A stretch of DNA of 64,000 nt from Paracoccus seriniphilus (GTDB lineage: Bacteria > Pseudomonadota > Alphaproteobacteria > Rhodobacterales > Rhodobacteraceae): assembly GCF_028553745.1 (NCBI RefSeq), contig NZ_CP067130.1, positions 62,001 to 126,000 on the forward strand. The letters are read 5' to 3'. Positions 1,732-34,209 of this stretch are shown in pieces; within the stretch, counting starts at the first letter, position 1, and each line of letters begins with the position of its first letter. Under the pieces are notes generated by a model. That model worked only from the letters and a program-made list of their open reading frames with translations. It searched no databases and was not told the DNA's origin. Both the position numbers and the translations under genes were made by a program.

Positions 1732-1742
1732 AGGACAAGATC

Positions 1743-2630: not shown

Positions 2631-2684
2631 GGGGCAGCACGGCCTGCCCGACACCAGACAGAGCATCAGGAAAGTGAGATTTGC

Positions 2685-3668: not shown

Positions 3669-3756
3669 TGGAAGATCCCGACGTTACTGCATCGTTGTCG
3701 GCTCGGCGCGGTCGCGACGCCGAGACCACCCAGTACATATTGTAGTGAAGGACCTC

Positions 3757-5106: not shown

Positions 5107-5585
5107 GACCCCAAAATCCTTCAGGGCCGCTGCCCTGCCTTCAGCGTGAATTTTCGCAGTCCATAGCGGTTGCTGTGCAACCTCTTGATCGGACGGGCGA
5201 TGCAACCGGTCCTCCTGATCTGAATTCCCGCCGTTTTTTGGTTCGCAGAAATAGCGCGCGTTCAGATTGCGGGCTGCTGGCGCGGCGGCAACGCAAGAAC
5301 TGACAATATTTTCCTTGCCGAATGTTATTTATTATGGAGAATGATGAAAGGCCCATGTTTGCGAATGATTCTTGTCGGGGTGCAGAGAAACAGACCCGCT
5401 GAACGGTCTTGTTGGTCTGGTGCGGCGCTGGGGTCATTGGGGACGACAAGTCTATCGTGCTGGCGCGACGGCTTCGAATTTGATCCGGCACCTGGGGGAA
5501 TGTTGGAGGTCGGGCTGCGGGGTCATTGGCCCATGCCCGCCCGCATATCTTCAGTGTCGGAATTACTGTCTGGGAGGAAAGAAAT
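5107..5585 (+). promoter_or_regulatory. Intergenic region (479 bp) with likely promoter for the ADH/TRAP/aldehyde-dehydrogenase block
   Basis: No convincing gene is seen here. It is AT-richer than its neighbours around 5290-5340. A plausible promoter is CTGACA at 5300-5305 with TGTTAT 17 bp downstream at 5323-5328. The start codon of the dehydrogenase lies another 250 bp on, so the leader would be long. Short open frames in the interval have no recognisable products. The region holds an 11-bp exact direct repeat that is listed separately. Confidence 0.45.
5430..5529. repeat. Two copies of GGGGTCATTGG, 89 bp apart
   Basis: The 11-mer GGGGTCATTGG occurs at 5430-5440 and again at 5519-5529, upstream of the alcohol dehydrogenase. 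The flanks are also GC-rich and partly alike. It could be a regulator site repeated in phase (89 bp is about 8.5 helical turns) or chance. Confidence 0.35.
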
Positions 5586-6641: not shown

Positions 6642-6695
6642 CATGTTCTGCGGCCGTCACCGGCCCTGAAATCACGACATGGGAGGAAATATAAA

Positions 6696-7841
6696 ATGAT
6701 GAATTACAAAGCCTTGGCGCTTCTTTCGACAATTCTCTACGCTGCCTTTCCGGGCGATGCGGCACAGGCCGAGACGCTGCGCTATGCGATCGGCTTTCCA
6801 CCTGGCGGTTCCGTGACCGATGGTCTTCATGAGTTCAATGACCGACTGAAAGCGGAAACGGATCTTGAATTGAAGATCTATGAGCTTTCGCTTCTGGATC
6901 TGAAGGAAACACCGCCGGGTGTGCGCGACGGCTTGGCTGATGCGGGCTATATCATCACGCCCTATTACGCAGCCGAATATTCCGAAACAAACCTTCCGGC
7001 AAATATGTCGATGCTGGCAACCGTCGGAACGCCCGCGAAGTCCTCGGGGGCCGTCATGGCCGGCGTGATGACCGAATATGTCATGCTGCATTGCGATGAA
7101 TGCCAACAGCAGTACAAGGCGCAGAACCAGATATTCCTGGGGGCTATCGGCACACCAGAATATGTGCAGCTTTGTACGACGCCGATCCGCAGCATCGAAG
7201 ACCTGAAGGGCAAGAAGATGAGGTCCTCGGTGGACGCGATGGGCCGTTGGGCTGAGAATTTCGGAGCCACCAAGGTTTCGATCCCTGCCAATGATATCTA
7301 CGAAGCCATGTCGCAGGGCGTTGTCGACTGCACGATGTTCTCTGCTCCTGAACTGGGCAATTTCCAGCTGTTCGATGTGACCAAATACATCACGCTCGGT
7401 TTGCCTGGGGGGAGCTTCGCTGGCGTTGGCGCGATGAACGTGAACCTTGATACTTGGCAATCGCTGTCGAAAGAGCAGCGTTCGGAAATGCTGCGGCTGG
7501 CACCTTTCAACGCGGCGGCCATCACCGTCAACTATCACCGCGCCGCCGAGCAGGATATCGAGAAGGCCCGCCAGAACGGCACCGAGATCATCGAGCGGCC
7601 CGAGGCGATGGCCAAGGCGACCGAGGAATTCGTTCGCGATGACGCTGCGGTCATCAAGGCCAGTTTCCAAAACGACTACGGTTTGGAGAATGTCGATGAG
7701 AAATACGATCTTATCGCCGGTCTGATCGAGAAATGGAAAGGTCTGACGGAAGATAGCCATAACGACAAGGATGCAATGACCGAGTTGCTCTGGACCGAGG
7801 TGTTCTCGAAAATGGATGCCGCAACCTATGGCATGAACTGA
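6696..7841 (+). CDS. TRAP transporter periplasmic solute-binding protein (DctP family)
   Basis: The 381-residue protein starts behind GGGAGGAAATATAAA. It has a cleavable signal peptide over about residues 1-25 (hydrophobic LALLSTILYAAF, then AQA). The mature part has the DctP pattern: LRYAIGFPPGG, IEDLKGKKMRSSVDAMGRWAENFGA with the conserved arginine region, and a middle segment WQSLSKEQRSEML. It would catch an organic anion in the periplasm for the two membrane subunits encoded just downstream. Cysteine-containing HCDECQQQ near residue 130 is unusual for the family and may form a disulfide. The ligand is unknown; carboxylate is the family norm. Confidence 0.88.
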   Translation: MMNYKALALLSTILYAAFPGDAAQAETLRYAIGFPPGGSVTDGLHEFNDRLKAETDLELKIYELSLLDLKETPPGVRDGLADAGYIITPYYAAEYSETNLPANMSMLATVGTPAKSSGAVMAGVMTEYVMLHCDECQQQYKAQNQIFLGAIGTPEYVQLCTTPIRSIEDLKGKKMRSSVDAMGRWAENFGATKVSIPANDIYEAMSQGVVDCTMFSAPELGNFQLFDVTKYITLGLPGGSFAGVGAMNVNLDTWQSLSKEQRSEMLRLAPFNAAAITVNYHRAAEQDIEKARQNGTEIIERPEAMAKATEEFVRDDAAVIKASFQNDYGLENVDEKYDLIAGLIEKWKGLTEDSHNDKDAMTELLWTEVFSKMDAATYGMN

Positions 7842-7895
7842 TGGCTGTGGCGGGTCGAAACACCGGCGCGCCACGCTGATATCCAAGAGGCTGCA

Positions 7896-8447
7896 ATGCA
7901 AAAAACAGACAAGCTTCTGCGGGCGATCATCGCGGTTTACGGAGGGATTGGTGCGGTCATCATCTTTTTGATGATGCTGCACATCACGGCCGATGTGATA
8001 AGCAAATTCGTCTTCAATCAACCGCTTCCCGGCACGATTCAGATTGTCTCACAATACTATATGGTTGCCGCAGCATTCCTGCCGCTTGCCATGGTGGAGC
8101 GGCTGACCGGACATATTTCGGTCGAAATTCTCTACAATGTACTTCCGGGCACGCTGCGCGGTATTCTCGCCATGTTTTCAACCGCTTTGGGGGCCGTCGT
8201 TTTTGCGGCCATGGCCTGGGCAAGCTGGGGCGAGGCGGTCAAGAAATATACCATCGGTTCATTCAGCTATGAACAGGGCGTCAAGATAGCCATCTGGCCA
8301 TCCTATTTCATCCTGCCGGCAGGCACAGCCTTGCTGGCGCTGGTGTTCCTGTGGCGGCTCATTGCCTATGTGATGCGCGCCGAGGATCCTTCGGCCCTCA
8401 CTCCGGGACAGGCGCAGGCAAGCAGTGAGGGTGTTTCCATTGACTGA
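7896..8447 (+). CDS. TRAP transporter small permease (DctQ family)
   Basis: This 183-residue protein has four predicted hydrophobic membrane segments (roughly residues 10-32, 48-65, 85-110, 130-155), the size and topology of DctQ subunits. It includes DVISKFVFNQPLPGTIQI and LPLAMVERLTGHISVEI, which resemble the conserved DVxxRxxFxxPxxWxxE and AxxxxxHIxV regions. It lies between the binding protein and the large permease and overlaps the latter by 8 to 23 bases depending on its start, so the three subunits are coexpressed. Confidence 0.86.
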   Translation: MQKTDKLLRAIIAVYGGIGAVIIFLMMLHITADVISKFVFNQPLPGTIQIVSQYYMVAAAFLPLAMVERLTGHISVEILYNVLPGTLRGILAMFSTALGAVVFAAMAWASWGEAVKKYTIGSFSYEQGVKIAIWPSYFILPAGTALLALVFLWRLIAYVMRAEDPSALTPGQAQASSEGVSID

Positions 8448-9747
8448 TATCCAGATTGGTTTCGCCGGAATTGCCATCCTGCTGACCCTGATTGCCCTGC
8501 GCGTTCCCATTGCGATCGCCTTGATCAGCGTGTCCTTCATGGGCATCTCGGAATTGGTTTCATACAAGGCTGCCTGGGGCGCGCTGGGGAATATCCCCTA
8601 TAATTTCACCGCCACCTGGCATCTGTCCTCTATCCCGATGTTCGTCCTGATGGGGTTCTTTTGCTATCATGCCGGGCTGACGACGGGGTTGTTCAAGGCT
8701 GCGCGGATGTGGCTTTCGGCGCTGCCCGGCGGGCTGGCGGTGGCGGGTGTTCTGGGTTGTGCCGGATTTGCCGCTGTTACCGGCTCTTCCATTGCCTGCG
8801 CGGCTGCCATGGGGCGCATCGCCGCGCCCGAGATGCTGCGCTATCGTTATGACGAGGGTCTTGCTACGGGCACCATCGCCGCGGCAGGCACCATCGGGGC
8901 CTTGATCCCGCCATCCATCCTGTTCATTCTTTACGGCATCATCGCGCAGGTTCAGGTCAGCCAGCTTTTTCTGGCCGGATCGGTGATCGGGCTGATCACT
9001 GTTGTGGCCTACACGCTGGTGATCGTGATCCGCGTCAAGCTCAACCCCGCGCTGGCCCCGGCAATCGAGGAGCATGTCGGGTGGGCGGAACGCTTTGCGG
9101 TCTTGCGAGAGGTCTGGCCGGTTCTGACGCTTGTTGTCGGTGTGTTTGGCGGCCTGTTTACCGGGATATTCACACCGACCGAGGCAGGCGGGGTCGGTGC
9201 GGCAATGTCCCTGGTGATCGCTTTTGCGCGCCGATCAATGACGCTGAAAGGAATCTGGTCCTCGCTGATGGAGACCCTGACCATTTCCTCTTCGATTTTC
9301 ATCATTGCTGTCGGGGCCAGCATGTTGACGCGATTTTTCACCTTTTCCGGTGTCAGCGATGCAATTGCCGACAGCGTATTGGGGCTGGGGGTTTCGCCTC
9401 TTCTGCTGATTTTGGCGATCACGCTGCTGTATCTGGTGTTGGGAATGTTCCTGGAACCGATCGGTGCGATGTTGCTGACCTTGCCGATCTTGCTGCCACT
9501 TGTCCAAGCGGCAGGCATCGAGCTGCTTTGGTTTGGCGTTCTGGTCGCAAAGCTCCTTGAGATCGGAATGATCACCCCTCCCATCGGGTTGAATGTCTTT
9601 GTCCTGAAAGGCGTGATGGGAGAGCGTATCTCGATCGGAAAGATATTCTCGGGCGTGACCTATTTCATCTTCGCGGATTTCGCGATCATCGCGCTGCTGG
9701 TGGCCTTCCCCGGAATCATCCTCTTCACACAAAACATTCTGCACTGA
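8440..9747 (+). CDS. TRAP transporter large permease (DctM family)
   Basis: About 435 residues and a dozen hydrophobic segments match the DctM ion-coupled permease. Conserved pieces include VLMGFFCYHAGL, AAVTGSSIACAAAMGRIAAPEM, TIGALIPPSI, FTPTEAGGVGA and GMITPPIGLNVFV. The start is uncertain: a TTG at 8440 gives the usual MTDIQIGFAGIA beginning and has GAGGGTG upstream, while GTG at 8425 would add five residues. Either way it overlaps dctQ, which is the usual arrangement. It moves the solute delivered by the DctP protein using a sodium or proton gradient. Confidence 0.87.
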   Translation: MTDIQIGFAGIAILLTLIALRVPIAIALISVSFMGISELVSYKAAWGALGNIPYNFTATWHLSSIPMFVLMGFFCYHAGLTTGLFKAARMWLSALPGGLAVAGVLGCAGFAAVTGSSIACAAAMGRIAAPEMLRYRYDEGLATGTIAAAGTIGALIPPSILFILYGIIAQVQVSQLFLAGSVIGLITVVAYTLVIVIRVKLNPALAPAIEEHVGWAERFAVLREVWPVLTLVVGVFGGLFTGIFTPTEAGGVGAAMSLVIAFARRSMTLKGIWSSLMETLTISSSIFIIAVGASMLTRFFTFSGVSDAIADSVLGLGVSPLLLILAITLLYLVLGMFLEPIGAMLLTLPILLPLVQAAGIELLWFGVLVAKLLEIGMITPPIGLNVFVLKGVMGERISIGKIFSGVTYFIFADFAIIALLVAFPGIILFTQNILH

Positions 9748-9773
9748 CTTACCGATCACGAAGGAACGACTTC

Positions 9774-11204
9774 ATGCTTACGGATACGAAACTCTTCATC
9801 AATGGTGCCTGGCGTCCCGCGTCGGACGGTGCGCGAAACGAGGTGCATGATCCCGCCACGGGCGAAGTGTCGGGTCACCATGCCGTGGCGACCAGAGAGG
9901 ATATGCTGGAAGCTGTAAGCGCAGCTGAAAGGGCCTTTCCGCTGTGGCGCGACACCCCGGCCATGGAACGTGCGGCAATCATGAAACGCGCTGCCGCACT
10001 TTTGCGGGAACGTGCAGCCGAGGTGGCCGCGATACTGACCTTGGAAATGGGGAAGCCTATTGCCGAAGCCGAAACGGAATTGCGTTCGTCGGCAGATATT
10101 CTGGATTGGTTCGCCGAAGAAGCGCGGCGCGTCTATGGTCGGGTCATCCCTCCGCGCAGTCCGGATGTAATGCAACTGGCGCTTAAGCAGCCGGTCGGGC
10201 CGGTTGCGGCCTTTACGCCCTGGAATTTCCCGGTCTCGCAGCTAGTCCGCAAGGTCGGCCCGGCGCTTGCCGCAGGCTGCACCGTCGTCGCCAAACCGCC
10301 AGAGGACGCACCGGCCAGTCCGGCGGCTATCGCCGAAGTGTTGTCAGAGGCCGGGCTGCCGGCAGGGGTGTTGAACCTGCTTTACGGAAATCCGCCAGAC
10401 ATTTCGAATTTCCTGATCCCGCATCCCGCCATTCGCAAGGTCTCGTTTACCGGCTCGGTCCCGGTCGGCAAGCAACTTGCCTCTCTTGCGGGACGGCATA
10501 TGAAGCGCATCACGATGGAGCTGGGCGGTCACAGTCCGGTTCTGGTCTTTGATGATGCCGACATCGAGGACGCGGCTCGCAGCATCGCTGCCTTCAAGTT
10601 CCGCAATGCCGGGCAGGTTTGCATTTCGCCGACCAGAATTCTGGTGCAGCGCGGAATCTATGATCGCTTTGTCAGGCAGTTGCGTAAAGAGGTCGATAAG
10701 ATCGTGACCGGACCGGGGATCGATCCGGCAACCGTGATGGGGCCGCTGGTTAGCCAACGCCGGATCGAGGCGGTCGGCACGCTCATCGATGAGGCCGTTT
10801 CCGAAGGAGCGACTCTGCTGACCGGGGGGGAACGGATGGATCACAGCGGCTTCTTCTACCGGCCGACGCTTCTTGAGAATGTCCCCGTCAAAGCCCGGAT
10901 CCTGAACGAAGAGCCTTTCGGGCCGGTCGCACTGCTTGCGCAATTCGATACGATCGAGGAAGCCGTCACGGAAGCAAATCGTCTGGCCTATGGGCTTGCA
11001 GCCTATGCCTATACGACCTCGATTCGGATTTCGCAGATACTTCAAAATCAGGTGGAAACTGGGATGTTGGCGATCAACCACACAGCGCTGGGATTGCCCG
11101 AACTGCCTCTGGGTGGGGTCAAGGATTCCGGTTTTGGTTCCGAGGGTGGATCGGAAGCTGTGGAAACCTATCTGTTCACAAAGCTGGTGACCCAGAAATC
11201 CTGA
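9774..11204 (+). CDS. NAD(P)-dependent aldehyde dehydrogenase, succinate-semialdehyde type
   Basis: The 476-residue protein has the full aldehyde dehydrogenase set: FTPWNFP, the nucleotide-binding VSFTGSVPVGKQL, the general base Glu249 in MELGGHSPV, and the nucleophile Cys283 in NAGQVCISPTR. The NAGQVCISPTR form and overall pattern are closest to GabD-like succinate-semialdehyde dehydrogenases, but related ones oxidise other semialdehydes. It ends the catabolic block and probably finishes the oxidation started by the zinc dehydrogenase. The start has GAAGGAACGACTTC before it. A stem-loop follows the stop. Confidence 0.87.
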   Translation: MLTDTKLFINGAWRPASDGARNEVHDPATGEVSGHHAVATREDMLEAVSAAERAFPLWRDTPAMERAAIMKRAAALLRERAAEVAAILTLEMGKPIAEAETELRSSADILDWFAEEARRVYGRVIPPRSPDVMQLALKQPVGPVAAFTPWNFPVSQLVRKVGPALAAGCTVVAKPPEDAPASPAAIAEVLSEAGLPAGVLNLLYGNPPDISNFLIPHPAIRKVSFTGSVPVGKQLASLAGRHMKRITMELGGHSPVLVFDDADIEDAARSIAAFKFRNAGQVCISPTRILVQRGIYDRFVRQLRKEVDKIVTGPGIDPATVMGPLVSQRRIEAVGTLIDEAVSEGATLLTGGERMDHSGFFYRPTLLENVPVKARILNEEPFGPVALLAQFDTIEEAVTEANRLAYGLAAYAYTTSIRISQILQNQVETGMLAINHTALGLPELPLGGVKDSGFGSEGGSEAVETYLFTKLVTQKS

Positions 11205-11242: not shown

Positions 11243-12160
11243 AAACCGAAACCATTCTCAGGCCCTGGTTCCGGTTCAGGCAACTCGGGATCGTCAATTT
11301 GTTGCCCGCGGTCGAAGGTGGCTGTGCGCTACCGCCTTTCACGCGGCCATGCTGTTTGCGCAGTCGTTCCAGCGCTCGAACGCGGTGGCGAAGTTCTGAC
11401 GGTATGCGGAGGCGGTCATCTTGTGGCGGCGAGGGCGGAACAGGTCTGCGGTTTCATCGTAACCGCCCGATTGGCATTGCTGGACTGCTCGAACACCAGG
11501 GCTGCCTACCGTTTCTTTTCCAACGGGAACGTCAGCGAAATGCATAAAACCCCCGACCCTGACCGCAACATTTAGCTTTAACTCATTGTTTTTCTGTATC
11601 TGTGCGTCAAATTTGGGCTGTGAGGGCCTGAACATTTCAAAGTTGATCTGTTGTTTTGATACAGTTTGTTTGCCATGCAGATGTCCTCGTTCCAACTGAT
11701 ATCGCGGCTTCCCGAGCGTCGGGGGGGGGATTACCCCCCTGACCGGTTAGACGGACGGTGATGCCCCCTGCGTGGCGGCACTCGAAACGCTTGATGACGC
11801 ACGGCGACAGGTGCTGTTCGGAAATGCCCCGACACTGCACAGCACCGACGCGCCTGCGCCCGCAGCTCCTGTGACAGAGCAAGCAGATGCCTGGCGCATG
11901 GTCCCGGTTTGGGACGCGACGGGCATCGAGGCGCAGAGCTCGACGAGATTACCATCGGCGGTCGTCCCGCGCCCTACAACGGGCGGCAGGGCGACACGGC
12001 TTTTGCACTCTTTGACGGAGGCGCGCGTGCGCAACTCGTCTCCGGCGCCTCCATCGGTCGGTGTCGCGTAGCCCCTAATTGTGAGATGCGAAATCCAACG
12101 AAATCAACGGCTACACTTTGCCCTTAAACCCGAAACAGGGTTCACAGACTTGTTCGGCAA
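11243..12160. other. Gene-poor debris between the organic-acid operon and the broken transposase
   Basis: No intact gene is convincing over this 0.9 kb. On the minus strand 11339-11695 could encode 118 residues ending DLFRPRRHKMTASAYRQ and FATAFERWNDCANSMAA, a basic end that could be a transposase remnant, but I do not recognise the family. On the plus strand, joining two frames around 11905-11945 gives a stretch VAALETLDDARRQVLFGN followed by DEITIGGRPAPYNGRQ, which looks like a once-coding frame with a shift, also unrecognised. Base use is less GC3-biased than in the flanks. I read the region as decayed mobile DNA. Confidence 0.5.
11719..11736. repeat. G9-ATTA-C6 tract resembling an insertion-sequence end
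   Basis: A run of G's, ATTA and a run of C's lies at about 11719-11738, followed by CTGACCGGTTAGACGG. The core GGGGGGATTACC also occurs at the right end of the IS3-family element at 21616-21628 and in reverse at its left end at 19213-19227. It may be a solo or orphan terminal repeat. Confidence 0.35.
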
Positions 12161-13125
12161 ATGTCGATGGATGATGATGATGGCGAGGACTCCGCTGCCG
12201 TTGGTGCTGAGGAGGCTCGCAGGGCCGTCGTGCTGCGCCCTCTCGTTCAGGCATGTCTCAATGGGACTGGCAGTCTGGAAAGTGGCATCAATGATGCCGT
12301 TTGGGAGCTTGGTGTCAGTAGGGCGACGGTCTGGCGTTGGATAAAGCGGCTAGCTGAGGAGGGTGGCGCACCAGCGCTCTGGTACCGCGGAAGCGGGGCC
12401 GCCCGACAGGTAGGGTTTTGATATCCAGCAAGGTCGAAGCGGTGATCGAATAGCATCTTCGCCTCTATTTCTTGCGCCGGGAGCGATCTAGCCTGTCGCG
12501 TGTTGTGACAGAGATCCGCAGCGCCTGCTGGCAACAAGGCTTGCAGCCGCAGACACGGCGGACGGTTCTGCGTCGTCTGGATGCGATGGATACCCGCGAA
12601 ATTGCGAAGGCACGGGAGGGCGCAAAGGCGGCCGGTCAGAAATTTGCGCCAGTCATAGGCGAGAACAAGGCCAGTCAGCCACTCGAGATCGTGCAAATCG
12701 ACCATACGCCCGCGGACATCATTCTTGTCGACAGTCTTGAGCGTCAACCAATTGGCCGGCCTTGGGTCACGCTGGCGATCGACATCGCAACGCGGATGGT
12801 AACTGGATACTACACCTCTCTGGAGGCCCCTTCGCGTCTGTCCGTGTCGCTTTGACTGACAAAGGCGGTTGCCCCGAAGGCGGAACTTCTGAGGGAATTG
12901 AGGTGCAATATTCCTTGGCCCGCGCAGGGCAAACCGCTCAGCCTCCACGTCGACAATGGCCGCGATTTCCGCTCGCGGGCCTTTCGGTCGGCATGCGCGG
13001 AATGGGGGATCGATTTGGTCTATCGGCCACCGGGAAGCCCTCATTTCGGAGGGCACATCGAACGGCTGATCGGGACGATGATGGGGGCCGTTCACCTGTT
13101 GCCGGGAACAACGCAATCCTCGGTC
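12161..13125 (+). pseudogene. Broken TniA/TnsB/Mu-type DDE transposase
   Basis: Three collinear pieces together make a TniA-like transposase. The N-terminal piece (12161-12421) has a helix-turn-helix, INDAVWELGVSRATVWRWIKRL. The next piece (from about 12412, other frame) reads RVLISSKVEAVIE, then a TAG at 12451, then YFLRRERSSLSRVVTEIR and the first catalytic aspartate in IVQIDHTPADI. A TGA at 12853 interrupts SVSL/LTKAVAPKAEL. The last piece has the second aspartate in HVDNGRDFRS and the glutamate in HFGGHIERLIGT, exactly 35 residues apart as in DDE enzymes. Similarity stops near 13125 after LLPGTTQSSVA. One frameshift, two nonsense codons and a lost C-terminus mean it is dead. No tniB or tniQ partner is seen. 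Confidence 0.82.
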
Positions 13126-13218
13126 GCGGCCACCCAACGCCGAACCAAGCGCTGCACTGCAAACAAGTTGGCAATGCCCAGACGTCAAAAAGGCCATGGC
13201 TCGGATTCAGAATGCGTT

Positions 13219-14106
13219 TCATCGATCAAGCCCCAATTGATCTAGGAACTGTTCATCTCGGGAGCGCAGCTTACGGGTGCCATCAAAGAATACCCCAATG
13301 TTTTCTGATCGAAACAAGTGCTGGAGCTTCTTGGTGCGCATGTCTTTGGGAAGGTCGACCAACATTTCGTCACAACATAAGGCAAAAAATATGCCCATCC
13401 CATTGCGCGCATACTCGATACATCGGTCATTGCTGGATGCTTCTAGCGTCACGTTGAACGGCAATCCCTTTTTCGACAGAGCAGACAGCAGCGCGCTTCC
13501 GGTTTGTGCGTATTCGGTGATCGGCGGCAGGATCAGGTTGTACCGGGAGATGGATTCAAGGTTGACCGGCGTGTTCCAGATGTCGTGGCTATCGTGGGCG
13601 ATGATGTAGTGATGCATCGGCAGCCACCTGATCTGCGTCAGGTCGGACGGCACATGCGTGAGCAGCCCTAGCCCCAAGTCGAATTCCTGGGAGCGGATGC
13701 CCTTGACCACCGCGTCCATTGAACATTCGATCAGCCGCAGCTTCACATCCGGCCGGGATTTCCAGAACGCCTTCACGTAGGACGGCAAAACCTTGGACAT
13801 CGTGTCGATGGGGGCCGCGATGACCAGCTTCCTTTCGGTCTCGTCCCTGATGTCGTGGATTCGTTCCACAACGGCTCGCTGTTCGCGCATGTACATCTCG
13901 GCGAACTGGAACAACTCCTTGCCTTCCGTGGTCGCCACGACGACGCCGCGCGAAACCTGCTCCACCAGTTTGCAGCCCAATTCCTGTTCCAGCGCGCGTA
14001 TTTGCTGGGTCACGGCCGATTGTGTCCGGTAGGTCGCCTCGGCCGCCTTGGTGAAGCTGCCGAGCTTGATCAGGTGATAAAACCCGACGATTTGGTGCTG
14101 TTGCAT
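13219..14106 (-). CDS. LysR-family transcriptional regulator (divergent from sulfatase)
   Basis: The 295-residue protein has the N-terminal LysR helix-turn-helix (FYHLIKLGSFTKAAEATYRTQSAVTQQI, residues 9-36) and a C-terminal effector domain beginning KLVIAAPIDT near residue 93. The N-terminal sequence and FDLGLGLLTH are reminiscent of the CysB/Cbl branch, which senses sulfur compounds, but I hold that loosely. It is transcribed away from the sulfatase, with 120 bp between starts and a perfect inverted repeat 14 bp in front of its own start. LysR proteins in this layout usually control both directions. The gene ends just where the transposase debris begins. Confidence 0.87.
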   Translation of the reverse strand: MQQHQIVGFYHLIKLGSFTKAAEATYRTQSAVTQQIRALEQELGCKLVEQVSRGVVVATTEGKELFQFAEMYMREQRAVVERIHDIRDETERKLVIAAPIDTMSKVLPSYVKAFWKSRPDVKLRLIECSMDAVVKGIRSQEFDLGLGLLTHVPSDLTQIRWLPMHHYIIAHDSHDIWNTPVNLESISRYNLILPPITEYAQTGSALLSALSKKGLPFNVTLEASSNDRCIEYARNGMGIFFALCCDEMLVDLPKDMRTKKLQHLFRSENIGVFFDGTRKLRSRDEQFLDQLGLDR

Positions 14107-14119
14107 GAGAATCCAAATT

Positions 14120-14158
14120 ATTAGAACGTCTAATATTTATGCCGACTTAAATTAATTT
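14120..14158. promoter_or_regulatory. LysR-type operator in the lysR/sulfatase divergent region
   Basis: ATTAGAACGTCTAAT at 14120-14134 is a perfect inverted repeat (5-bp arms, 5-bp centre) and fits the T-N11-A LysR box. A second AT-rich palindrome, AAATTAATTT, lies at 14149-14158. Both sit in the AT-rich 120-bp interval between divergent starts, where the LysR product is expected to bind. Confidence 0.6.
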
Positions 14159-14226
14159 GACGCTAGGTAATTGTCACGCTCTAATCTTGGTAACAGCGCG
14201 ACAACCATCACCAACTGGATAAGAAC

Positions 14227-15777
14227 ATGCCCAAGTCTCCCAACATCGTAATGATTTGTACCGATCAGCTTCGCTTTGACGGTCTGGGGTGCACCGGAAA
14301 CTCGGTCGCGCGCACGCCCAATATCGACAGCATCGCGAAGAGGGGCACGTCCTTTGCCAACCATATCACGCCTTGCCAGATATGCGCGCCGAGCCGGGGG
14401 TCGATGTTCACCGGGCTCTACCCTCGCCACCACGGTATGACCCGCAACGGTCTGATCCTCGACCCGTCCAAGGAACACTTTACGCATGTGCTGAAGAAGG
14501 CCGGCTATCGCACCTACGGCCTGGGCAAGTTCCACTTCCAGCCGACCCATGCGCCTGCCGAATACGGCCTGCCGGAATCGAACGGTTTCTGGACCCTGCC
14601 GCAAAGCGAAGGGTGGGACGGGCCGTTCTATGGCTTCGACAAGGTCGACTTCGTGATCGGCGATTCCTTCACGACTGCACGGGGCGGGCATTATGCCACC
14701 TGGCTGAACACCAACCATCCGGGGGCGGCGGACCTGTACCTGCCAGAAAACAGCCTTGATGACGAACCCGACGAGATGGAAGAACTCTGGAAGGCCAGCA
14801 TTCCGGCGGAGCTGCATTACAATCACTGGATGGCTGACCGCGCGGCGGACTACATCGAGAAGCACACCGACGACAACCCGTTCTTCCTGTTCATGTCAAC
14901 GCCTGACCCGCACCATCCCTGGTGCCCGCCGGCACCATATTGCGACCGCTTCGACCCCAACGACATGCCGATGCCGAGGGCGGTCACCGGCGAGCTGGAC
15001 AAGATGCCCAACTACATCCGGGATGAAATCTGGACCGACGGGTCGAACGGTGAGACGACCTACAAGGACTTCGTGGACGCCGGGACCTTCCCGATCGAGC
15101 AGGGCAGCTGGCAGAATACGACTGCTTTCGGCGAAATGAGCCTGAGAAAGATCATCGCCTACAACCACGCCCTGATGAACATGATCGACGATTGCGTGGG
15201 CAAGGTACTCGCCGCACTGGAAGCGCGCGGGATCACCGACGACACGATCATCATTTTCACCTCCGACCATGGCGAGTTGATGGGCGATCACGGTCTCATT
15301 CGCAAAGGACCCATGCCCTACAGGGAGCTGATCCAGATCCCGCTGCTGGTCGCGGGGCCCGGTATTCCCGAAGGTCGCCAGATCGACGCGATGACGAGCC
15401 ACCTCGATCTCAAGGACACGATTGTTGATCTGGTAGGACACACGGGACAGCCGACCGATGGAACCAGCCTGAAGCCCCTGATCGACGGTACAAAAGAGCA
15501 GGTGCGTGACGTCGCTTACGGCGAGTATTACACGCGCGCCGTCGACAACCAGTACAACAAGACGATAATCACCAACGACGACCGCCTCACCATCTATCCT
15601 CTCGCCGAGGAAGACAACTGGGGTGAATATTTCGACTATGCAAGTGACCCCGGCGAGCACGACAATCGCTTTGCGGACCGAGGCAAAAGTGAGCGCATCG
15701 CGCAGTTGTCGGCGCAACTGGAAACTGCCTTGCCCGGCACACCTCCGGCAACCGGGAGCATCCTGGGCTTCTTCTGA
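14227..15777 (+). CDS. Formylglycine-dependent sulfatase (alkaline phosphatase superfamily), cytosolic
   Basis: The 516-residue protein carries the sulfatase signature CAPSRGSMFTG; Cys53 is the residue converted to formylglycine. CTDQLRFDGLG near the N-terminus and FTSDHGELMGDHG near residue 340 supply metal ligands. GKFHFQP and PDPHHPW are also seen. There is no signal peptide, so it should act in the cytoplasm on an imported ester. The size and DQLR form recall choline sulfatases, arylsulfatases and phosphonate monoester hydrolases; sequence alone does not separate them. It diverges from a LysR gene and is followed after 95 bp by a polar-amino-acid-type ABC importer. No sulfatase-modifying enzyme is encoded nearby, so one must exist elsewhere. 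A small GGCCC/GGGCC hairpin at 15782-15795 follows the stop. Confidence 0.86.
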   Translation: MPKSPNIVMICTDQLRFDGLGCTGNSVARTPNIDSIAKRGTSFANHITPCQICAPSRGSMFTGLYPRHHGMTRNGLILDPSKEHFTHVLKKAGYRTYGLGKFHFQPTHAPAEYGLPESNGFWTLPQSEGWDGPFYGFDKVDFVIGDSFTTARGGHYATWLNTNHPGAADLYLPENSLDDEPDEMEELWKASIPAELHYNHWMADRAADYIEKHTDDNPFFLFMSTPDPHHPWCPPAPYCDRFDPNDMPMPRAVTGELDKMPNYIRDEIWTDGSNGETTYKDFVDAGTFPIEQGSWQNTTAFGEMSLRKIIAYNHALMNMIDDCVGKVLAALEARGITDDTIIIFTSDHGELMGDHGLIRKGPMPYRELIQIPLLVAGPGIPEGRQIDAMTSHLDLKDTIVDLVGHTGQPTDGTSLKPLIDGTKEQVRDVAYGEYYTRAVDNQYNKTIITNDDRLTIYPLAEEDNWGEYFDYASDPGEHDNRFADRGKSERIAQLSAQLETALPGTPPATGSILGFF

Positions 15778-15872
15778 TCGAGGCCCGGCGGGGCCGTATG
15801 AGAAGCCTCAAACCCCGCAACCAAAAATCGGCCATTCGTGCCGGTGAAAGAAACCACAACAGGGAAAAACCT

Positions 15873-16709
15873 ATGCAGAAACTGATGAAACTGACCGCGG
15901 CTCTTGCTGCCATGGCGATACCGGTTCAGGCCGTTGCCCAGGAATGTACCAACGACGTCTGGAACAAGGTGATGGAGCGCGGAAAGCTCGTCGCCGGTGT
16001 CAAGGCGGACTACAAGCCGTGGGGCTATCGCGATACAGATGGCTCCATCGTCGGGATGGAGGTCGACTTGGTCGCCGATGTGGCCGCCAAGATGGGCGTC
16101 GACTACGAACTAGTGCCCGTCGTCGGCTCCAACCGCCTGGCATTCCTGGAGCAGGGCCAGATCGACATGTTCATCGCCACAATGACCGACCTGCACGACC
16201 GGCGGAAGATCGTCGGCATTCCCAGCCCGAACTACTACAGCTCCGGTACCAACATCCTGTCGCCCAAGGCGCTTGGCTTCAAGGAATGGGTCCAACTGCG
16301 CGACAAGCCGGTCTGTGCGGTCCAGGGCGCGTTTTTCAACAAGCTCATCGAAGAACGCTATGGCGCGAACATCGTTGCCTTCCAGGGGACTGCCGAGGCG
16401 AAGCAGGCTCTCAGGGACAAGAAATGCGTGGCCTTTGCCTTTGACGACAGTGGCCTGATGTCGACCCTCGCCACCGGTGACTGGGAAGATTTCGAAATGC
16501 CGCTGCCGACCGAGGACGCCGCATCATGGGGGCTCGCGGTTCCGAAAGCTGAAGAAAACTGCATCTTCGGGCGCTTCATGTCGGGCATGCAGTACTACTG
16601 GCACCGCGAAGGCAGGCTGATCGCGTTGGAAGACAAATGGGGCATCCGGCAGACAGCCTATCTAGCTGAGCAGGCCGAGAAGTTCAAAGACCACCTTCCC
16701 GCAGAATAA
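15873..16709 (+). CDS. ABC transporter substrate-binding protein, polar amino acid (PAAT) type
   Basis: From the ATG at 15873, which has AGGGAAAAACC before it, the protein is 278 residues. A signal peptide covers about residues 1-23 (LMKLTAALAAMAIPVQAVAQ). The mature part matches family 3 solute-binding proteins: GKLVAGVKADYKPWGYRDTDGSIVGMEVDLVADVAAKMG, then FIATMTDLHDRR. Compared with the classic family, the usual TITPERxxxVxFS motif is replaced by TMTDLHDRRKIVGIPS, which hints at an unusual ligand. It should deliver the ligand to the two permeases downstream; the neighbouring sulfatase suggests that ligand is a sulfate ester. That is inference. Confidence 0.85.
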   Translation: MQKLMKLTAALAAMAIPVQAVAQECTNDVWNKVMERGKLVAGVKADYKPWGYRDTDGSIVGMEVDLVADVAAKMGVDYELVPVVGSNRLAFLEQGQIDMFIATMTDLHDRRKIVGIPSPNYYSSGTNILSPKALGFKEWVQLRDKPVCAVQGAFFNKLIEERYGANIVAFQGTAEAKQALRDKKCVAFAFDDSGLMSTLATGDWEDFEMPLPTEDAASWGLAVPKAEENCIFGRFMSGMQYYWHREGRLIALEDKWGIRQTAYLAEQAEKFKDHLPAE

Positions 16710-16728
16710 GAGAGGGGCGACTTCCGTC

Positions 16729-17484
16729 ATGAACGGCTTGGAAGACTTCTTCGTACAATTGGCGGATGATTACCCCCGCTGGAACTTCATCTGGCTTTAC
16801 GATGCAAGGCAGGCCGATCGAATTTTGACCGGCCTGTGGATGACCATCAAGCTGAGCATCGCCTGCGTTCTGCTGTCGGTCGTCATCGGCGTAGTTGGCG
16901 CGTTGCTGCAAGGCAGCAAGAACGCATTGGTTCGATCCCTTATTCAGGGCTACATCCAGTTCTTTCGCAACACGCCGCCGCTGGTGCAATTGTTGTTCTT
17001 CTATTTCGCGTTGGGACAATTCACCCCCGTGGTGGTGGGCCCCGACGGCTGGACCGAACAACCCATCATCTCCAACGTGGGCTGGGCCATAATCTCCCTG
17101 TCGTTCTTTGCCGGAGCTTTCAACGTCGAGATTTTCCGCGCCGGGATCGAGGCGGTCCCGAACACCACGCGCGAGGCTGCAACCTCCCTGGGAATGGGAA
17201 ACCTGCAGACCTTTGCCTACGTGGTGTTTCCGCTCTCGCTCAGGGTGTCCATTCCCGCACTGAACAACAATCTGGTCAATCTGGTGAAAACCACAACGCA
17301 GGCCTACGCCGTAGCGGTCCCCGAACTGCTTTATGAATCCGTGTCTGTCTGGAACGATTACCCCTCTGCGCAGAACCCGACGATGCTGTTGTTGCTCGTC
17401 ACCTACCTTGCGCTTGTCGGTGTGCTCGTTTTCGGAATGAACACTTGGGAAAGAAACATGAGGATCCCCGGATATGGCAATTAA
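16729..17484 (+). CDS. ABC transporter permease 1, polar amino acid (HisM/GlnP) type
   Basis: The 251-residue membrane protein has the His/Glu/Gln permease pattern: ILTGLWMTIKLSIA, QFFRNTPPLVQLLFFYF, and the EAA loop EAATSLGMGNLQTFAYVVFPLSLR that contacts the ATPase. About five hydrophobic segments are present. It overlaps the second permease by 11 bases, so the two are translated together and form the membrane pore. An insertion after the NTPP region (TPVVVGPDGWTEQP) is typical of the longer members that act on arginine, lysine or related ligands. Confidence 0.86.
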   Translation: MNGLEDFFVQLADDYPRWNFIWLYDARQADRILTGLWMTIKLSIACVLLSVVIGVVGALLQGSKNALVRSLIQGYIQFFRNTPPLVQLLFFYFALGQFTPVVVGPDGWTEQPIISNVGWAIISLSFFAGAFNVEIFRAGIEAVPNTTREAATSLGMGNLQTFAYVVFPLSLRVSIPALNNNLVNLVKTTTQAYAVAVPELLYESVSVWNDYPSAQNPTMLLLLVTYLALVGVLVFGMNTWERNMRIPGYGN

Positions 17485-18361
17485 TTCCATTCCAGGCCTT
17501 GCGTCGGGCAGGCAAACGGACCTTCCGGTGATGAAACCGTTTCGTCCGCGAGGTCCAGCCTACGACGAGATGTATCTCGTTCGCTGGTTGGCCAGTATCC
17601 GGGCACGACACATCGTGCTGTTGCTGATGCTCTGGCCGGCTGTCGCATATGCGCAAGGCGGCAACTACGGGCTGGGCGACGCATTCAAGGCGCTCTGGCG
17701 CTGGATCCCCTTCATCACCTTGCAGGGGTTCGTGTTCAACGTCCTGATCTCGATCTTTGCCATGGCGATCGGGACATTCGCCGGTGCCGCCCTCGGATTG
17801 GCGCAGTTGTCCAAGATCACCATTTTGCGCCGGATCGCCTATTTTGTCACTCAGATGTTCAGAAACTCGCCATGGCTGGTGTTGCTGTTCGTCGTCCTGC
17901 TGGCGTTTCCTTACGAAATTGTCATCTTCGGTTTTGTCATACCAATCCCTTCGTGGATGAAAGCCGTTGTGGGCCTGTCTCTCCCGGTCATGGCAAACAT
18001 TTCCGAAATCGTGCGGGGAGCGGTGAAATCCGTGCCTTCCGCCCAATGGGAAGCTGCGGAAGCGCTGTCCTTCACCAGAACGCAAACCATGTGGCAGATC
18101 ATCCTGCCGCAATGCTTCAAGCGAATGATCCCGCCATGGATGAACTGGTACGCAATCCTGACGATGGCCACGCCGCTGTGTTCTTTGCTGGGGGTTGGGG
18201 AAATCATTACCTACTCGCGCCAGGCGATGGAGGCAGAGAACAACTATCCCGAATTGCTGGTTCCCTTCTACGGTTACACCCTTCTTCTGTTCTTTGCCTA
18301 TTGCTACCCGATCGCACGGATGACCATCGCGCTTGAACGCCGTTTTGCCGTAAAGTTTTGA
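17474..18361 (+). CDS. ABC transporter permease 2, polar amino acid type
   Basis: The 295-residue protein is the second PAAT permease. It has a long N-terminal extension of about 50 residues before the first membrane segment, then MFRNSPWLVLLFVVLLAFP (the equivalent of FRNTPxxVQ), and an EAA loop WEAAEALSFTRTQTMWQIILPQCFKRMIPP. The ATG at 17474 lies within the end of permease 1. An alternative start further in, near residue 33 (MYLVRW), would remove the extension; I see no better ribosome site there. The C-terminus overlaps the region leading into the ATPase gene. Confidence 0.83.
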   Translation: MAINSIPGLASGRQTDLPVMKPFRPRGPAYDEMYLVRWLASIRARHIVLLLMLWPAVAYAQGGNYGLGDAFKALWRWIPFITLQGFVFNVLISIFAMAIGTFAGAALGLAQLSKITILRRIAYFVTQMFRNSPWLVLLFVVLLAFPYEIVIFGFVIPIPSWMKAVVGLSLPVMANISEIVRGAVKSVPSAQWEAAEALSFTRTQTMWQIILPQCFKRMIPPWMNWYAILTMATPLCSLLGVGEIITYSRQAMEAENNYPELLVPFYGYTLLLFFAYCYPIARMTIALERRFAVKF

Positions 18362-18372
18362 GAGACACTGAC

Positions 18373-19122
18373 ATGACCAACTGGACTCCCGACCAACCGA
18401 TCATCTCGATTCACAACGTCCATAAATCCTTTGGTACTTTCAAGGTTCTCAAGGGCGTCAGCATCGACGTCATGAAAGGCGAGGTGATCTGCATCATCGG
18501 GCCTTCGGGCTCGGGCAAATCAACGTTGATCCGGTGCATCAACGCATTGAATGACATCCAGGGTGGTTCGATCACTGTCGAAGGGCAGGAGGTGCACGAC
18601 GACAAGCTCGACAAGCTGGCGCTGCGGAAAAAGGTGGGAATGGTCTTTCAACAGTACAATCTGTTTCCGCACAAGACCGCCCTCCAAAACGTCATGATGG
18701 CACCAATCAAGGTTTTGAAAGAACCAAAGGCCGAGGTCGAACAGCGTGCGCGCGCCTTGATCAAGAAGGTCCGGCTGGAAGGTAAGGAAGACAGCTATCC
18801 GGGCGAATTGTCGGGTGGTCAGCAACAGCGCGTCGCCATCGCGCGGTCATTGGCAATGCGGCCGGATGTGATGCTGTTCGACGAAGTGACCGCGGCACTC
18901 GACCCCGAGACGGTGAAGGAGGTGCTGATCACGATCAAGGATCTGGCGGCCGAAGGCATGACCTGCATTCTCGTGACCCATGAAATGAAGTTTGCCGAGG
19001 AAGTCGCCGACCACATCTACTTTACCGACAAGGGCGTGATCGTCGAGCATGGGCCCCCGGCCGAATTCTTCAAGATGGCAAGCGACCCGCGCACGCGGGA
19101 ATTCCTGTCGCAGGTTCTCTGA
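18373..19122 (+). CDS. ABC transporter ATP-binding protein, polar amino acid (GlnQ/HisP) type
   Basis: The 249-residue protein has Walker A GPSGSGKST, Q-loop VFQQYNLFPH, signature LSGGQQQRVAIAR, Walker B VMLFDEVTAALD and switch histidine VTHEM. The start is the ATG at 18373 with GAGAG upstream; an in-frame TTG at 18358 is possible but poorer. Walker B reads DEVTAALD where DEPTSALD is usual; this variant occurs in functional family members, so it is not a defect. It powers the two permeases and completes the sulfatase operon. Just past the stop the sequence turns into insertion-sequence material. Confidence 0.88.
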   Translation: MTNWTPDQPIISIHNVHKSFGTFKVLKGVSIDVMKGEVICIIGPSGSGKSTLIRCINALNDIQGGSITVEGQEVHDDKLDKLALRKKVGMVFQQYNLFPHKTALQNVMMAPIKVLKEPKAEVEQRARALIKKVRLEGKEDSYPGELSGGQQQRVAIARSLAMRPDVMLFDEVTAALDPETVKEVLITIKDLAAEGMTCILVTHEMKFAEEVADHIYFTDKGVIVEHGPPAEFFKMASDPRTREFLSQVL

Positions 19123-19205: not shown

Positions 19206-19689
19206 GTGTCGGGGGTAATCCCCCCCGATCTTAGGGGGCTGCGGAAGTGGAATTTTCTCGGCAGGATGAACGAGCAGATCGCCGACCTGCTGCTTGGGCT
19301 GACGAAGGCGAAGAAGACCTGGGGCTTTGGCCTGTGCTTTCTCTACCTGCGCAATGTCCAGGGCCATGGCTGGAACCACAAGCGGGTCTACCGGATCTAC
19401 CGCGAGCTGGAGCTGAACCTCAGGATCAAGCCGCGCAAACGGCTGAAACGGGAGAAGCCCGACGAGTTGGCCGTGCCAGAACAGCCGAACGAAGTCTGGT
19501 CCATGGACTTCATGGCAGATCGCCTCGGGGACGGACGCCAGTTCCGGCTGCTGAATGTCCTGGACGACTTCAACCGTGAAGGGCTGGGTATCGAGGTCGA
19601 CTTCTCGCTACCCGCGGAACGCGTCGTCAGGGCGCTGAACCAGATCATCGAATGGCGTGGTGCGCCTCGAACCATACGAGTCGACAACG
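19206..19689 (+). pseudogene. IS3-family transposase orfB, 5' part (interrupted)
   Basis: From [17 protein letters not shown] (ATG at 19266) the frame reads as an IS3-family orfB with [24 protein letters not shown] and the rve integrase domain: first catalytic aspartate in [12 protein letters not shown] and the run-up to the second in TIRVDN. It stops matching after ACAACG at 19689, where an IS110 element is inserted. The 5' part of orfB and all of its orfA are missing: only about 40 bases separate the terminal repeat at 19213 from the first homologous residue. The rest of the gene is at 21317-21589. Confidence 0.82.
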
Positions 19690-19924
19690 TCCTATGTCAG
19701 GAAAATCTGGCTGCTTAGGTCAGCAGGTCGTGTGGCATCCGGCTGTCCGGATACCCTGATAAGGTTGCCCAGACGGGCTCTGCCGTCAAGAAATGATCTC
19801 ATCCATAGCAAACACAGGGTACGCGCGCTGGCGGCCCTCACCGTCCTTAATACGAGATCCCAAATCCCAAGCAGAAGGCCCGAACATTATCTACGAGGTC
19901 AGATTGACTGCCTCCACGGCTCAG
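19690..19924 (-). ncRNA. Candidate IS110-type bridge RNA region (3' of the transposase)
   Basis: IS110-family elements encode a guide (bridge) RNA in a non-coding end. In the IS1111 group it lies 3' of the transposase, which here is the longer end (235 bp). Two adjacent hairpins are visible: ATCCGG-CTGT-CCGGAT at 19737-19752 and GACGG-GCTCTG-CCGTC at 19772-19787. The guide loops themselves cannot be identified by eye, so this is a positional candidate only. Confidence 0.35.
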
Positions 19925-21181
19925 TCAGAGAGAGGTCCTTCCGCCTGGGCTCACCCCCTCGAAGAAGGGGCGATAGGGTTCGCCGTGATTGACCACAGCG
20001 TGTACGGTGCGCGCCATCTTGGCCGCGATCGCGGTGTAGGCCTTGCGGCGCAGATGAGCGTTGTGTCGGTCTTTCGAGATGTAGCGTTCGAACTTGTCCC
20101 GAAAGCTGTTGGTCTTTGTCTGGACCGCCGTCTGGCCGGCCATCCATAGCGTGCGGCGCAGCCGGGCATTGCCGTACTTCGAGATCCGGCTCTGCCCGCG
20201 AAACATGCCGGACTGCACGGTGGCAAGATCCATGCCGCAGAACTTCAGGAACTGCCGATGATGCCGAAATCGGCGTAGGTCACCGGCCTCGGCCAAGATG
20301 GTCATGGCATTGATCGGACCAATGCCGGGGATGGTTGTCAGTAGCTGATAATCCGGCAGATCGGAGAGCAGCGCGACCGCCCGGGCCTCGATCTCGTTGC
20401 GCTGGCGGACGAGGCTTCTACCTTCGGAAAGGACCAGGCGGAACATGCGAACGGCGTCGGAATCCGGTTCCACGGGCAATCCAACAGAGTTGACCGCCGT
20501 AGCGTAAATATCTGAAAGCAGGCGCTCCTTGGCGACCTTCCTGCCCACCACCTGCCAAGCGTCTGCGATGAAGGTTTCCTGGCTCATGGCCGTGATCATC
20601 GTCGGTGTCGGATACTTCTCGAGGAAGGCCAGGAACCAATCGGTTCGTGAGCTTCGGTGAAACCGTTCGGCCTCTGGGAAATAGAGCGGCAGGTAATGGG
20701 TCAGGATGCGGTGCCAGAGCTCGGTCTTCGAGCGTGAAACGATCTCGTGCGTCTTTGACAATTCCTGGATGTCGGCGGTCCCGACGACCAGCGGATCATG
20801 AAAGAACTGCACGGCGCCAATCTCCAGCATGTGCAGGATGACCTGGGCATCCTTCGGGTCGTTCTTGTCCCAACTGTTGTGCAGGGCCTCGCGCGTCCGG
20901 GCGAGCCCGACAGAAGGGATGAGCTTCAAGTCAAACCCGGCCTGCCCGAGATGATGTGCCAGTGGCCTGTGATAGTTGCCGGTCGCCTCGAACCCGACCC
21001 GCACAGGCAGGCCGTAGCTGGCCAGGCTCGCGGACAAGCGCTGGAAGTCTTCCAACGTGTTCATGATCGTCATGCGACGACGGCGCTTCTTGCCCGGTAC
21101 CTCGATCAAGACCTCGTGGCGGTGCTTGGAAATGTCGATGGCGACAAGCACAGTCGCAGCAGTAGAATGGTTGGCGGGCAT
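19925..21181 (-). CDS. IS110-family transposase (DEDD recombinase)
   Basis: The 418-residue protein starts at the ATG at 21181 behind a GAGGAG site; an in-frame start at 21247 would add 22 residues running into the inverted repeat. The N-terminal RuvC-like DEDD domain has the first acid in VAIDISKHRHEV, Glu in VGFEATGNYHRPLA, and the last two in SWDKNDPKDAQVI. The C-terminal Transposase_20 region has IPGIGPINAMTILAEAGDL and FRGQSRISKYGNARLRR, which holds the serine used for DNA cleavage in this family. No lesions are visible, so it may be active. It recombines DNA under direction of a bridge RNA from the element's own end. Confidence 0.88.
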   Translation of the reverse strand: MPANHSTAATVLVAIDISKHRHEVLIEVPGKKRRRRMTIMNTLEDFQRLSASLASYGLPVRVGFEATGNYHRPLAHHLGQAGFDLKLIPSVGLARTREALHNSWDKNDPKDAQVILHMLEIGAVQFFHDPLVVGTADIQELSKTHEIVSRSKTELWHRILTHYLPLYFPEAERFHRSSRTDWFLAFLEKYPTPTMITAMSQETFIADAWQVVGRKVAKERLLSDIYATAVNSVGLPVEPDSDAVRMFRLVLSEGRSLVRQRNEIEARAVALLSDLPDYQLLTTIPGIGPINAMTILAEAGDLRRFRHHRQFLKFCGMDLATVQSGMFRGQSRISKYGNARLRRTLWMAGQTAVQTKTNSFRDKFERYISKDRHNAHLRRKAYTAIAAKMARTVHAVVNHGEPYRPFFEGVSPGGRTSL

Positions 21182-21235
21182 AGCCGGTCTCCTCAGCGGT
21201 GTGGTTCTGCAAAACCACTGTTGAGACCTGAGACC

Positions 21236-21286
21236 GGTTATGGCCACACGCTGCGCTATTTGGGGGCTACGCGCGTGGCCATAACC
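21236..21286. repeat. 16-bp inverted repeat near the IS110 transposase start
   Basis: GGTTATGGCCACACGC (21236-21251) faces GCGCGTGGCCATAACC (21271-21286), one mismatch in 16, with a 19-base spacer. An adjacent hairpin GTGGTT-CTGCAA-AACCAC lies closer to the gene, around 21200-21217. They sit in the 5' non-coding end of the element, where sub-terminal repeats or a junction promoter are expected. Confidence 0.6.
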
Positions 21287-21316
21287 TTAAAACAGCGCTT
21301 CTTCCCGACGTGCTAC

Positions 21317-21589
21317 GGCCCAGAATACATCAGCGGCACCCTCATGGAATGGGCCGAAAACAAGGGCATCTCCTTGGCCCACATACAGCCGGGGAAACCG
21401 CAGCAGAACGCTTATGTCGAGCGCTACAACCGGACGGTCCGGCACGAATGGCTGGACCTCCACATCTTCGAAAGCATCGACGAGGTGCAGCAGATTGCCA
21501 CCGAATGGCTCTGGTCCTACAACAATGAACGCCCGAACATGGGCAACGGCGGGATGACACCCGCACAGAAACTGAGAATGGCCGCGTAA
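21317..21589 (+). pseudogene. IS3-family transposase orfB, 3' part
   Basis: This piece continues the interrupted frame with GPEYISGTLMEWAENKGI, IQPGKPQQNAYVERYNRTVR carrying the catalytic glutamate, and the usual C-terminal WLWSYNNERPN and GGMTPAQKL. It ends with a TAA shortly before the right terminal repeat. The gene is split from its 5' part by the IS110 element. Confidence 0.85.
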
Positions 21590-33043: not shown

Positions 33044-33060
33044 TCGGTCGGAAAGATATG

Positions 33061-33091
33061 GCCTGCCCCCGGATCGTCTCCGGGGGCAGGC
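33061..33091. terminator. Bidirectional stem-loop between bdh-like gene and lacI
   Basis: A perfect 12-bp stem (GCCTGCCCCCGG / CCGGGGGCAGGC) with the 7-base loop ATCGTCT lies between two convergent genes, 17 bp after one stop and 12 bp from the other. It should terminate both. Confidence 0.75.
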
Positions 33092-33103
33092 AATCGCGGC
33101 GGG

Positions 33104-34132: not shown

Positions 34133-34209
34133 TATTCGGTGGTGAGCCAATCGACCCGGTTCTTCCCAGCATCTAGCCTAATGGCTGCCGGGTGAAAATG
34201 CACCAAAAA

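Follow-up and report, generated by a model that had tools for sequence, protein, structure and literature searches.

A LysR-linked sulfatase and polar-amino-acid importer cassette in Paracoccus seriniphilus, a candidate uptake-and-desulfation unit for an anionic O-sulfated amino-acid-like compound

What would a sulfatase that lacks an evident export signal do beside an importer of the amino-acid class? The question is raised by a six-gene cassette at positions 13219–19122 of a 64,000-nt window (the whole stretch of DNA analysed here) of contig NZ_CP067130.1 of the marine-type bacterium Paracoccus seriniphilus, which has 599,725 bases and is one of five contigs in the 4.26-Mb genome. The cassette encodes a LysR-family regulator, a formylglycine sulfatase and a polar-amino-acid (PAAT) ATP-binding cassette importer. 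Judging from sequence comparison, we give an even chance to the reading that it is a LysR-controlled uptake-and-desulfation unit for an anionic O-sulfated amino-acid-like compound. The substrate-binding protein (SBP) would bind, in the periplasm, a small compound that resembles an amino acid and bears an anionic side group, the two permeases and the ATPase would import it intact, and the sulfatase would hydrolyse the sulfate ester in the cytosol, yielding sulfate and a hydroxylated amino acid. As the cassette holds no further catabolic gene, this product would pass to ordinary metabolism. The ligand may be serine-, threonine- or tyrosine-O-sulfate, or a related sulfate ester that bears a carboxylate.

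A profile search of the window showed that all six genes pass their Pfam cut-offs. The lysR gene (13219–14106, minus strand; HTH_1 and LysR_substrate) lies beside five plus-strand genes, namely those for a 516-aa sulfatase (14227–15777; PF00884, 173.9 bits), a periplasmic SBP of the SBP_bac_3/PAAT type (15873–16709, with an earlier start at 15798; PF00497, 72.8 bits, cut-off 26.4), PAAT permease 1 (16729–17484; TIGR01726, 68.5 bits, cut-off 42.2), PAAT permease 2 (17474–18361; TIGR01726, 51.3 bits against the same cut-off) and a PAAT ATPase (18358–19122; PF00005, 126.6 bits; best model GlnQ, 311 of 379 bits). With an SBP_bac_3 protein, two HEQRo-type permeases and an ATPase, the make-up of a PAAT importer is complete. 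The SBP probably starts at 15873, which gives 278 aa as in most relatives and is the start from which its residues are numbered here, and the ATPase probably starts at the ATG at 18373. An earlier note on this DNA had described a LysR, a sulfatase and a polar-amino-acid importer set between mobile-element debris, with the binding protein, permeases and ATPase following in one direction; the ORFs, the Pfam profiles and transposase matches at both borders confirm the layout, and the importer genes all lie on the plus strand (15798–19122).

The closest relative in the genome collection is the distant marine bacterium Amphritea atlantica C1R06 (Gammaproteobacteria; locus L007), which carries the same six genes at identities of 66 % (LysR), 77 % (sulfatase), 74 % (SBP), 81 and 75 % (permeases 1 and 2) and 86 % (ATPase). 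Gene order and content are kept between the two, except that lysR is inverted. The conservation of six genes, together with a similar box before the sulfatase gene, argues that the cassette is no chance assembly. Partial counterparts were found in metagenomes, where contigs were linked by equal size across the homologue lists (best 120 of 2604 SBP, 120 of 327 sulfatase and 120 of 191 LysR matches) and the linkage was counted only where identities agree. A contig of 16798 bases holds LysR, sulfatase and SBP, and contigs of 16127 and 25164 bases hold sulfatase and SBP; the sizes 5331 and 10811 are also common to the sulfatase and SBP lists, possibly by coincidence.

The box in question is a near-palindromic LysR-type (T-N11-A) sequence, ATTAGAACGTCTAATA, at 14120–14135 on the plus strand, 107 bp upstream of the sulfatase ATG and with 6 of 7 pairs matching. 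It occurs once in the window, and its pattern once in the host genome, where a reversed control gave 0. The Amphritea counterpart, ATTAGAAACGCTAATA (L007:6897–6912; 5/7 pairs), lies 104 bp before the sulfatase ATG, so that the position before the sulfatase gene is kept despite the turned-around lysR. In a shuffle test of near-palindromy and distance, which was defined after the motif had been noticed, an equally good shared near-palindrome appeared anywhere in 7 of 5000 shuffled-spacer pairs and at the same distance in 1 of 5000. LysR probably binds this box and thereby activates the sulfatase and importer genes, which would be co-transcribed as one operon. The regulator itself belongs to the cassette. 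Among the 120 LysR clusters listed, nine are 55–100 % identical to it and the other 111 only 32–37 %, a gap on which we regard it as cassette-specific. Against a CysB-type sulfur-regulator model it scored 85 bits (cut-off 402), and against the choline-sulfate-type regulator model TIGR03418, 50 bits (cut-off 325).

The sulfatase carries Cys53 in a C-A-P-S-R57 motif, as the earlier note had read it, and its catalytic and metal-binding set is complete (D13, Q14, C53, R57, N74, K101, H103, H229, D347, H348 and K360), the residues being those of a class I formylglycine (S1) sulfatase. That note had also found no signal peptide, and we saw none by eye in the N-terminus; the P. seriniphilus protein opens with its first core strand (MPKSPNIVMICTDQ), and so does its Amphritea counterpart, suggesting that the enzyme should stay in the cytosol. 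The nearest solved relatives include 7oz8, labelled choline-sulfatase (157 bits), together with other sulfatases and phosphonate hydrolases. Assignment to choline sulfatase (TIGR03417, 150.3 bits, cut-off 433.45) and to the phosphonate hydrolase PehA (NF045661, 186.7 bits, cut-off 900) was rejected. The choline sulfatase BetC of Sinorhizobium meliloti (SmCS; 6fny) is given as a member of subfamily S1_12 (PMC5066984), and the active-site residues of SmCS that are named in PMC5870055 have counterparts in the cassette sulfatase, placed by eye from alignments, each of which is kept in 119–120 of 120 clade sulfatases. The host genome has 12 places matching PF00884.

Formylglycine maturation appears to be provided for in the host. 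Its genome encodes one PF03781 protein, which scores 321 bits against a solved formylglycine-generating enzyme (FGE) and carries the motif GGSYLCHASYC with its cysteine pair; on these grounds we take it to be a true FGE. As a separate observation, a second sulfatase-like ORF (by eye) directly followed by an FGE-like protein is present at L168:3801–6030, near an importer whose SBP is 58 % identical to that of the cassette and a dimethylglycine-dehydrogenase (DMGDH)-like gene (by eye).

Which importers usually accompany such sulfatases was assessed at 118 sulfatase loci (the window, L004–L086, L183–L196 and L199–L218, the last widening 20 of the 29 family loci L088–L116). The DNA up to 6 kb from the best sulfatase was scanned for importer genes, which were assigned by their best BLAST hit among a small set of reference proteins; the counts are lower bounds, and some loci hold more than one type. 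CUT1 (sugar-type) systems were found at 20 loci, SBP_bac_5-type (PepT) at 12, TRAP at 4, and MFS and CUT2 at one each, while no importer genes were seen within 6 kb at 83 of the 118. PAAT genes stood beside a sulfatase at two loci, the window and Amphritea, in line with the expectation of the earlier note that sulfatases of this kind usually pair with other importer classes. Among the sulfatases of 43–50 % identity, which come from five other genomes among 384 drawn from the class and from two plasmids, an SBP_bac_5-type protein lies nearby at 6/7 loci (L004, L005 and L183–L187; assigned by Pfam for L004 and L005 and by BLAST for the others); at the seventh, L184, the contig ends 0.9 kb from the sulfatase. 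In a tree of 56 sulfatases, the window protein groups with four near relatives (SH-aLRT 100) inside a set of relatives whose known neighbours, six in all, are SBP_bac_5-type, and this nesting suggests that the lineage of the window sulfatase switched importer class.

Alphaproteobacterial loci of this SBP_bac_5-linked kind include those of Leisingera thetidis plasmid pBMJM1_4 and Rhizobium leguminosarum CB782, in which a sulfatase (50 and 47 % identical, respectively) has an SBP gene downstream and a divergent LysR-type gene upstream. Unlike that of the cassette, their binding proteins are SBP_bac_5 (PepT-class); the R. leguminosarum LysR matches the cassette LysR at 25 % over half its length and the adjacent Leisingera LysR gave no hit. 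The Leisingera plasmid also carries two lysR–SBP–sulfatase modules close together at L004:6999–17527; a gene of one module, labelled choline-sulfatase, lacks the usual active-site Gln and Lys and adjoins ectoine genes.

The SBP has a signal peptide (by eye). Its motif was held in the earlier note to be an altered signature (TMTDLHDRR), which proved mistaken: TMTD-x-x-DRR is the family norm, D106, D109 and R110 are present in 110/110 close relatives, and just L107 differs, standing in place of the usual Arg in 6/7 cassette-type SBPs. Residues K44, R88, R110 and D191/D192 align with R47, R98, R120 and D205/D206 of E. coli K-12 GltI, positions which we take to bind the side-chain carboxylate, the alpha-carboxylate and, for D205/D206, the amino group. 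By this match the pocket is suited to a ligand that is anionic and resembles an amino acid. The importer is thus reminiscent of the GltIJKL kind of PAAT system in its SBP_bac_3 protein, two HEQRo permeases, single ATPase and conserved basic pocket positions, but its SBP is only 23 % identical to GltI, and membership among the glutamate/aspartate SBPs was rejected on the curated model (NF008063, 42.2 bits, cut-off 375).

Where the cassette SBPs depart from their relatives was examined with the 119 listed clusters besides that of the window (of 2604), from which the overlong P0004 was dropped and P0006 and P0009 were set aside. Seven cassette-type SBPs (the window, P0002, P0003, P0005, P0007, P0008 and P0010; P0003 and P0007 by LysR linkage only) show no residue overlap with the 110 others at at least nine positions, which are G85, L89, S118, A149, F155, F190, G194, A216 and S218. 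Several of these adjoin the GltI-type pocket residues, and the two set-aside proteins have all nine cassette-type residues. A more specific proposal is a dedicated, horizontally shared system for an O-sulfated alpha-amino acid, in which a retuned PAAT importer and a cytosolic sulfatase would work under one LysR; we put it forward tentatively, as a possibility somewhat short of an even chance, and at the same tentative level the importer ancestor would have served an acidic or N-methyl amino acid. CuyTUVW of the marine roseobacter Ruegeria pomeroyi (SPO3040–3043), described as a four-gene cysteate importer, shows that transport systems of this size can serve anionic amino acids that contain sulfur (PMC10130141). 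Compared by its description there rather than by sequence, it resembles the cassette importer in having four genes and an anionic sulfur-bearing amino acid as ligand; it differs in that this ligand is a sulfonate and not a sulfate ester.

Several observations weigh against the uptake-and-desulfation reading, and some of them would suit the view that importer and sulfatase merely travel together, in which case the importer would serve common amino acids of the acidic or N-methylated type and the sulfatase would receive a substrate that enters elsewhere. Several SBP relatives at 41–65 % identity lie beside sarcosine oxidase, DMGDH-like, MmgE/PrpD or aspartate ammonia-lyase genes (L140, L141, L142, L144, L164 and L166, and, by eye, L169 and L170). 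Of these, L164 combines a soxA gene scoring over its cut-off with MmgE/PrpD, L166 has the dimethylglycine-dehydrogenase-like gene and L142 the aspartate ammonia-lyase, and such neighbours suggest that these relatives bind N-methylated or acidic amino acids; catabolic neighbours of this kind were not seen at L139 and L143 (annotation) or at L161, L162, L167 and L173 (by eye). Plasmid importers of Parasedimentitalea, Paracoccus and Thalassospira likewise share the four-gene order, with SBPs of 42–58 % identity, and stand beside sarcosine-oxidase-type genes; they differ from the cassette in that no sulfatase is annotated within about 6 kb. K44, R88, R110 and D191 are common to SBP relatives with no sulfatase seen alongside, and A149 is found again in four of seven more distant SBPs, F190 in one of them. 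The LysR and SBP lists share metagenome contigs of 17442 and 41281 bases, which have no sulfatase among the matches listed, those of 16127 and 25164 bases have no LysR among the matches listed, and the mobile-element borders permit accidental clustering. The shared box word by itself is not significant (27/300 shuffle pairs). A further adverse point concerns maturation: Amphritea carries a Cys-type sulfatase although its genome (G1121) has no recognised FGE, the sole PF03781 hit being kinase-fused and without the FGE cysteine pair, in a search that did not extend to radical-SAM maturases. Unmodified SmCS is described as retaining some activity (PMC6189696). We nevertheless consider mere co-travel unlikely, since content and order are identical across two bacterial classes despite 14–34 % divergence and an inverted lysR, the box before the sulfatase is conserved and the SBP is altered at at least nine positions in the cassette-carrying lineage.

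A second alternative keeps the machine and changes the ligand, which would be a small sulfated carboxylic acid or other anion, such as a sulfated hydroxy or phenolic acid, and not an alpha-amino acid. The SBP_bac_5 class, which adjoins the wider sulfatase clade, takes varied ligands. Arg437, present in 114/120 clade sulfatases, stands in pairwise alignment opposite Glu386 of SmCS, the ammonium-recognising residue; it may replace that residue and would then suggest a carboxylate, a match to which we give little weight as a larger alignment places the column differently and Arg also occurs there in 60/158 distant sulfatases. An importer of the amino-acid class and the DD pair aligned with GltI D205/D206, with its presumed amino-group role, speak for an amino acid instead, and a ligand of this other kind seems to us improbable to about the same degree as co-travel. 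It is very unlikely that the enzyme hydrolyses phosphonate monoesters or phosphodiesters and that the cassette serves a phosphorylated amino acid. Superfamily members with the same formylglycine do catalyse such reactions, and both PehA and solved phosphonate monoester hydrolases match; the PehA score, however, is far under its cut-off and the catalytic residues are those of SmCS, of which the R. leguminosarum phosphonate monoester hydrolase has 9 of 11 according to the residues named in PMC5870055. Least probable of all is import and hydrolysis of choline-O-sulfate, the best-known use of a cytosolic sulfatase in this group. The cassette enzyme is, like BetC/SmCS, a class I formylglycine sulfatase of the same superfamily with matched active-site residues (as named in PMC5870055), but it lacks a long C-terminal tail like that of SmCS, it and the regulator fall well below the TIGR03417 and TIGR03418 cut-offs, the importer is built of SBP_bac_3 and TIGR01726 proteins, and betA and betB are not among the six genes. 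When the proposal of the earlier note, import of a small charged sulfate ester followed by cytosolic desulfation, is held against these data, its treatment of importer and sulfatase as one unit is upheld by the conserved cassette, the box, the catalytic set and the host FGE; its identification of the ligand as a sulfate ester did not gain the same footing.

The cassette was likely acquired horizontally, as the earlier note had supposed, a conclusion that follows from its distribution and the transposon remnants at both ends and not from composition. Among 101 genomes of the genus, the only one with a match above 37 % identity is that of the window itself; when 295 genomes were drawn from the family, the best match outside it was 38 % identical, and in the genus of Amphritea a match at E ≤ 1e-100 was found in 1/17 genomes. 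The left border is a truncated TniA-type transposase gene of a TniA/TniB/TniQ transposon, with its front part preserved (12062–13132, plus strand); this part has 87.7–89.6 % identity to sequences in the 12 plasmid records listed among 221 with a match, including plasmids of Pseudosulfitobacter, Sulfitobacter and Phaeobacter. The matching genes are annotated as ‘Mu transposase C-terminal domain’ in 11/12 of these records, and one match (L223) has an intact TniA-TniB-TniQ set. On the right is an IS3-family transposase fragment (19206–19718, plus strand; NF033516, 102.7 bits, below the cut-off of 160; PF00665, 50.2 bits), the C-terminal part of which resumes, by eye, inside the ORF at 20798–21589, past an IS110-family transposase that interrupts the IS3 element (19925–21247, minus strand; NF033542, 227.4 bits, cut-off 140). 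Composition was rejected as proof of transfer: the GC content of the cassette, 0.55–0.58 per kb, matches the 0.557–0.611 of the DNA 5–12 kb to the left, and its GC content at third codon positions (0.72–0.78) is not deviant from that of 34 other predicted genes (0.70 ± 0.05). From 22 kb on, the right part of the window is mostly at 0.60–0.68, above the cassette.

The surroundings yielded some further observations. Four plasmid records cover more than 80 % of the stretch with the IS110-in-IS3 nesting (19206–21589), namely those of Rhodobacteraceae SC52, Sulfitobacter dubius, Loktanella and Sulfitobacter sp. DSM 110093, the latter two unbroken, and the nesting may recur at one site. To the left of the transposon remnant, a catabolic block at 419–11204, read by eye, holds a CoA-transferase pair and genes for a lyase, a nitronate-monooxygenase-like protein, an MmgE/PrpD-like protein, an alcohol dehydrogenase, TRAP DctP/DctM and an aldehyde dehydrogenase, and at about 33000–44000 there are myo-inositol catabolism and importer genes resembling Paracoccus and Ponticoccus plasmid genes. 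Beyond the cassette in Amphritea, L007:12300–15363 encodes a dioxygenase of the PhyH family and another SBP_bac_3 protein, along with a small ORF that by eye resembles a transposase end and has no Pfam hit.

Taken singly, class I sulfatases and PAAT importers are well known; what appears to be new is their fixed pairing with a LysR of its own and the change of importer class that seems to have occurred inside the sulfatase clade, neither of which was found in a literature search on amino-acid sulfates and on sulfatases with amino-acid importers. In marine dissolved sulfur, the share made up of small organic sulfate esters is poorly charted. With one importer and one sulfatase in a compact cassette, the locus points to a specific metabolite and a short list of ligands, and the contrast with the SBP_bac_5-linked relatives, together with the changed SBP positions, indicates where specificity should lie. 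If the proposal of a dedicated system for O-sulfated amino acids is true, such compounds would be free nutrients in the sea.

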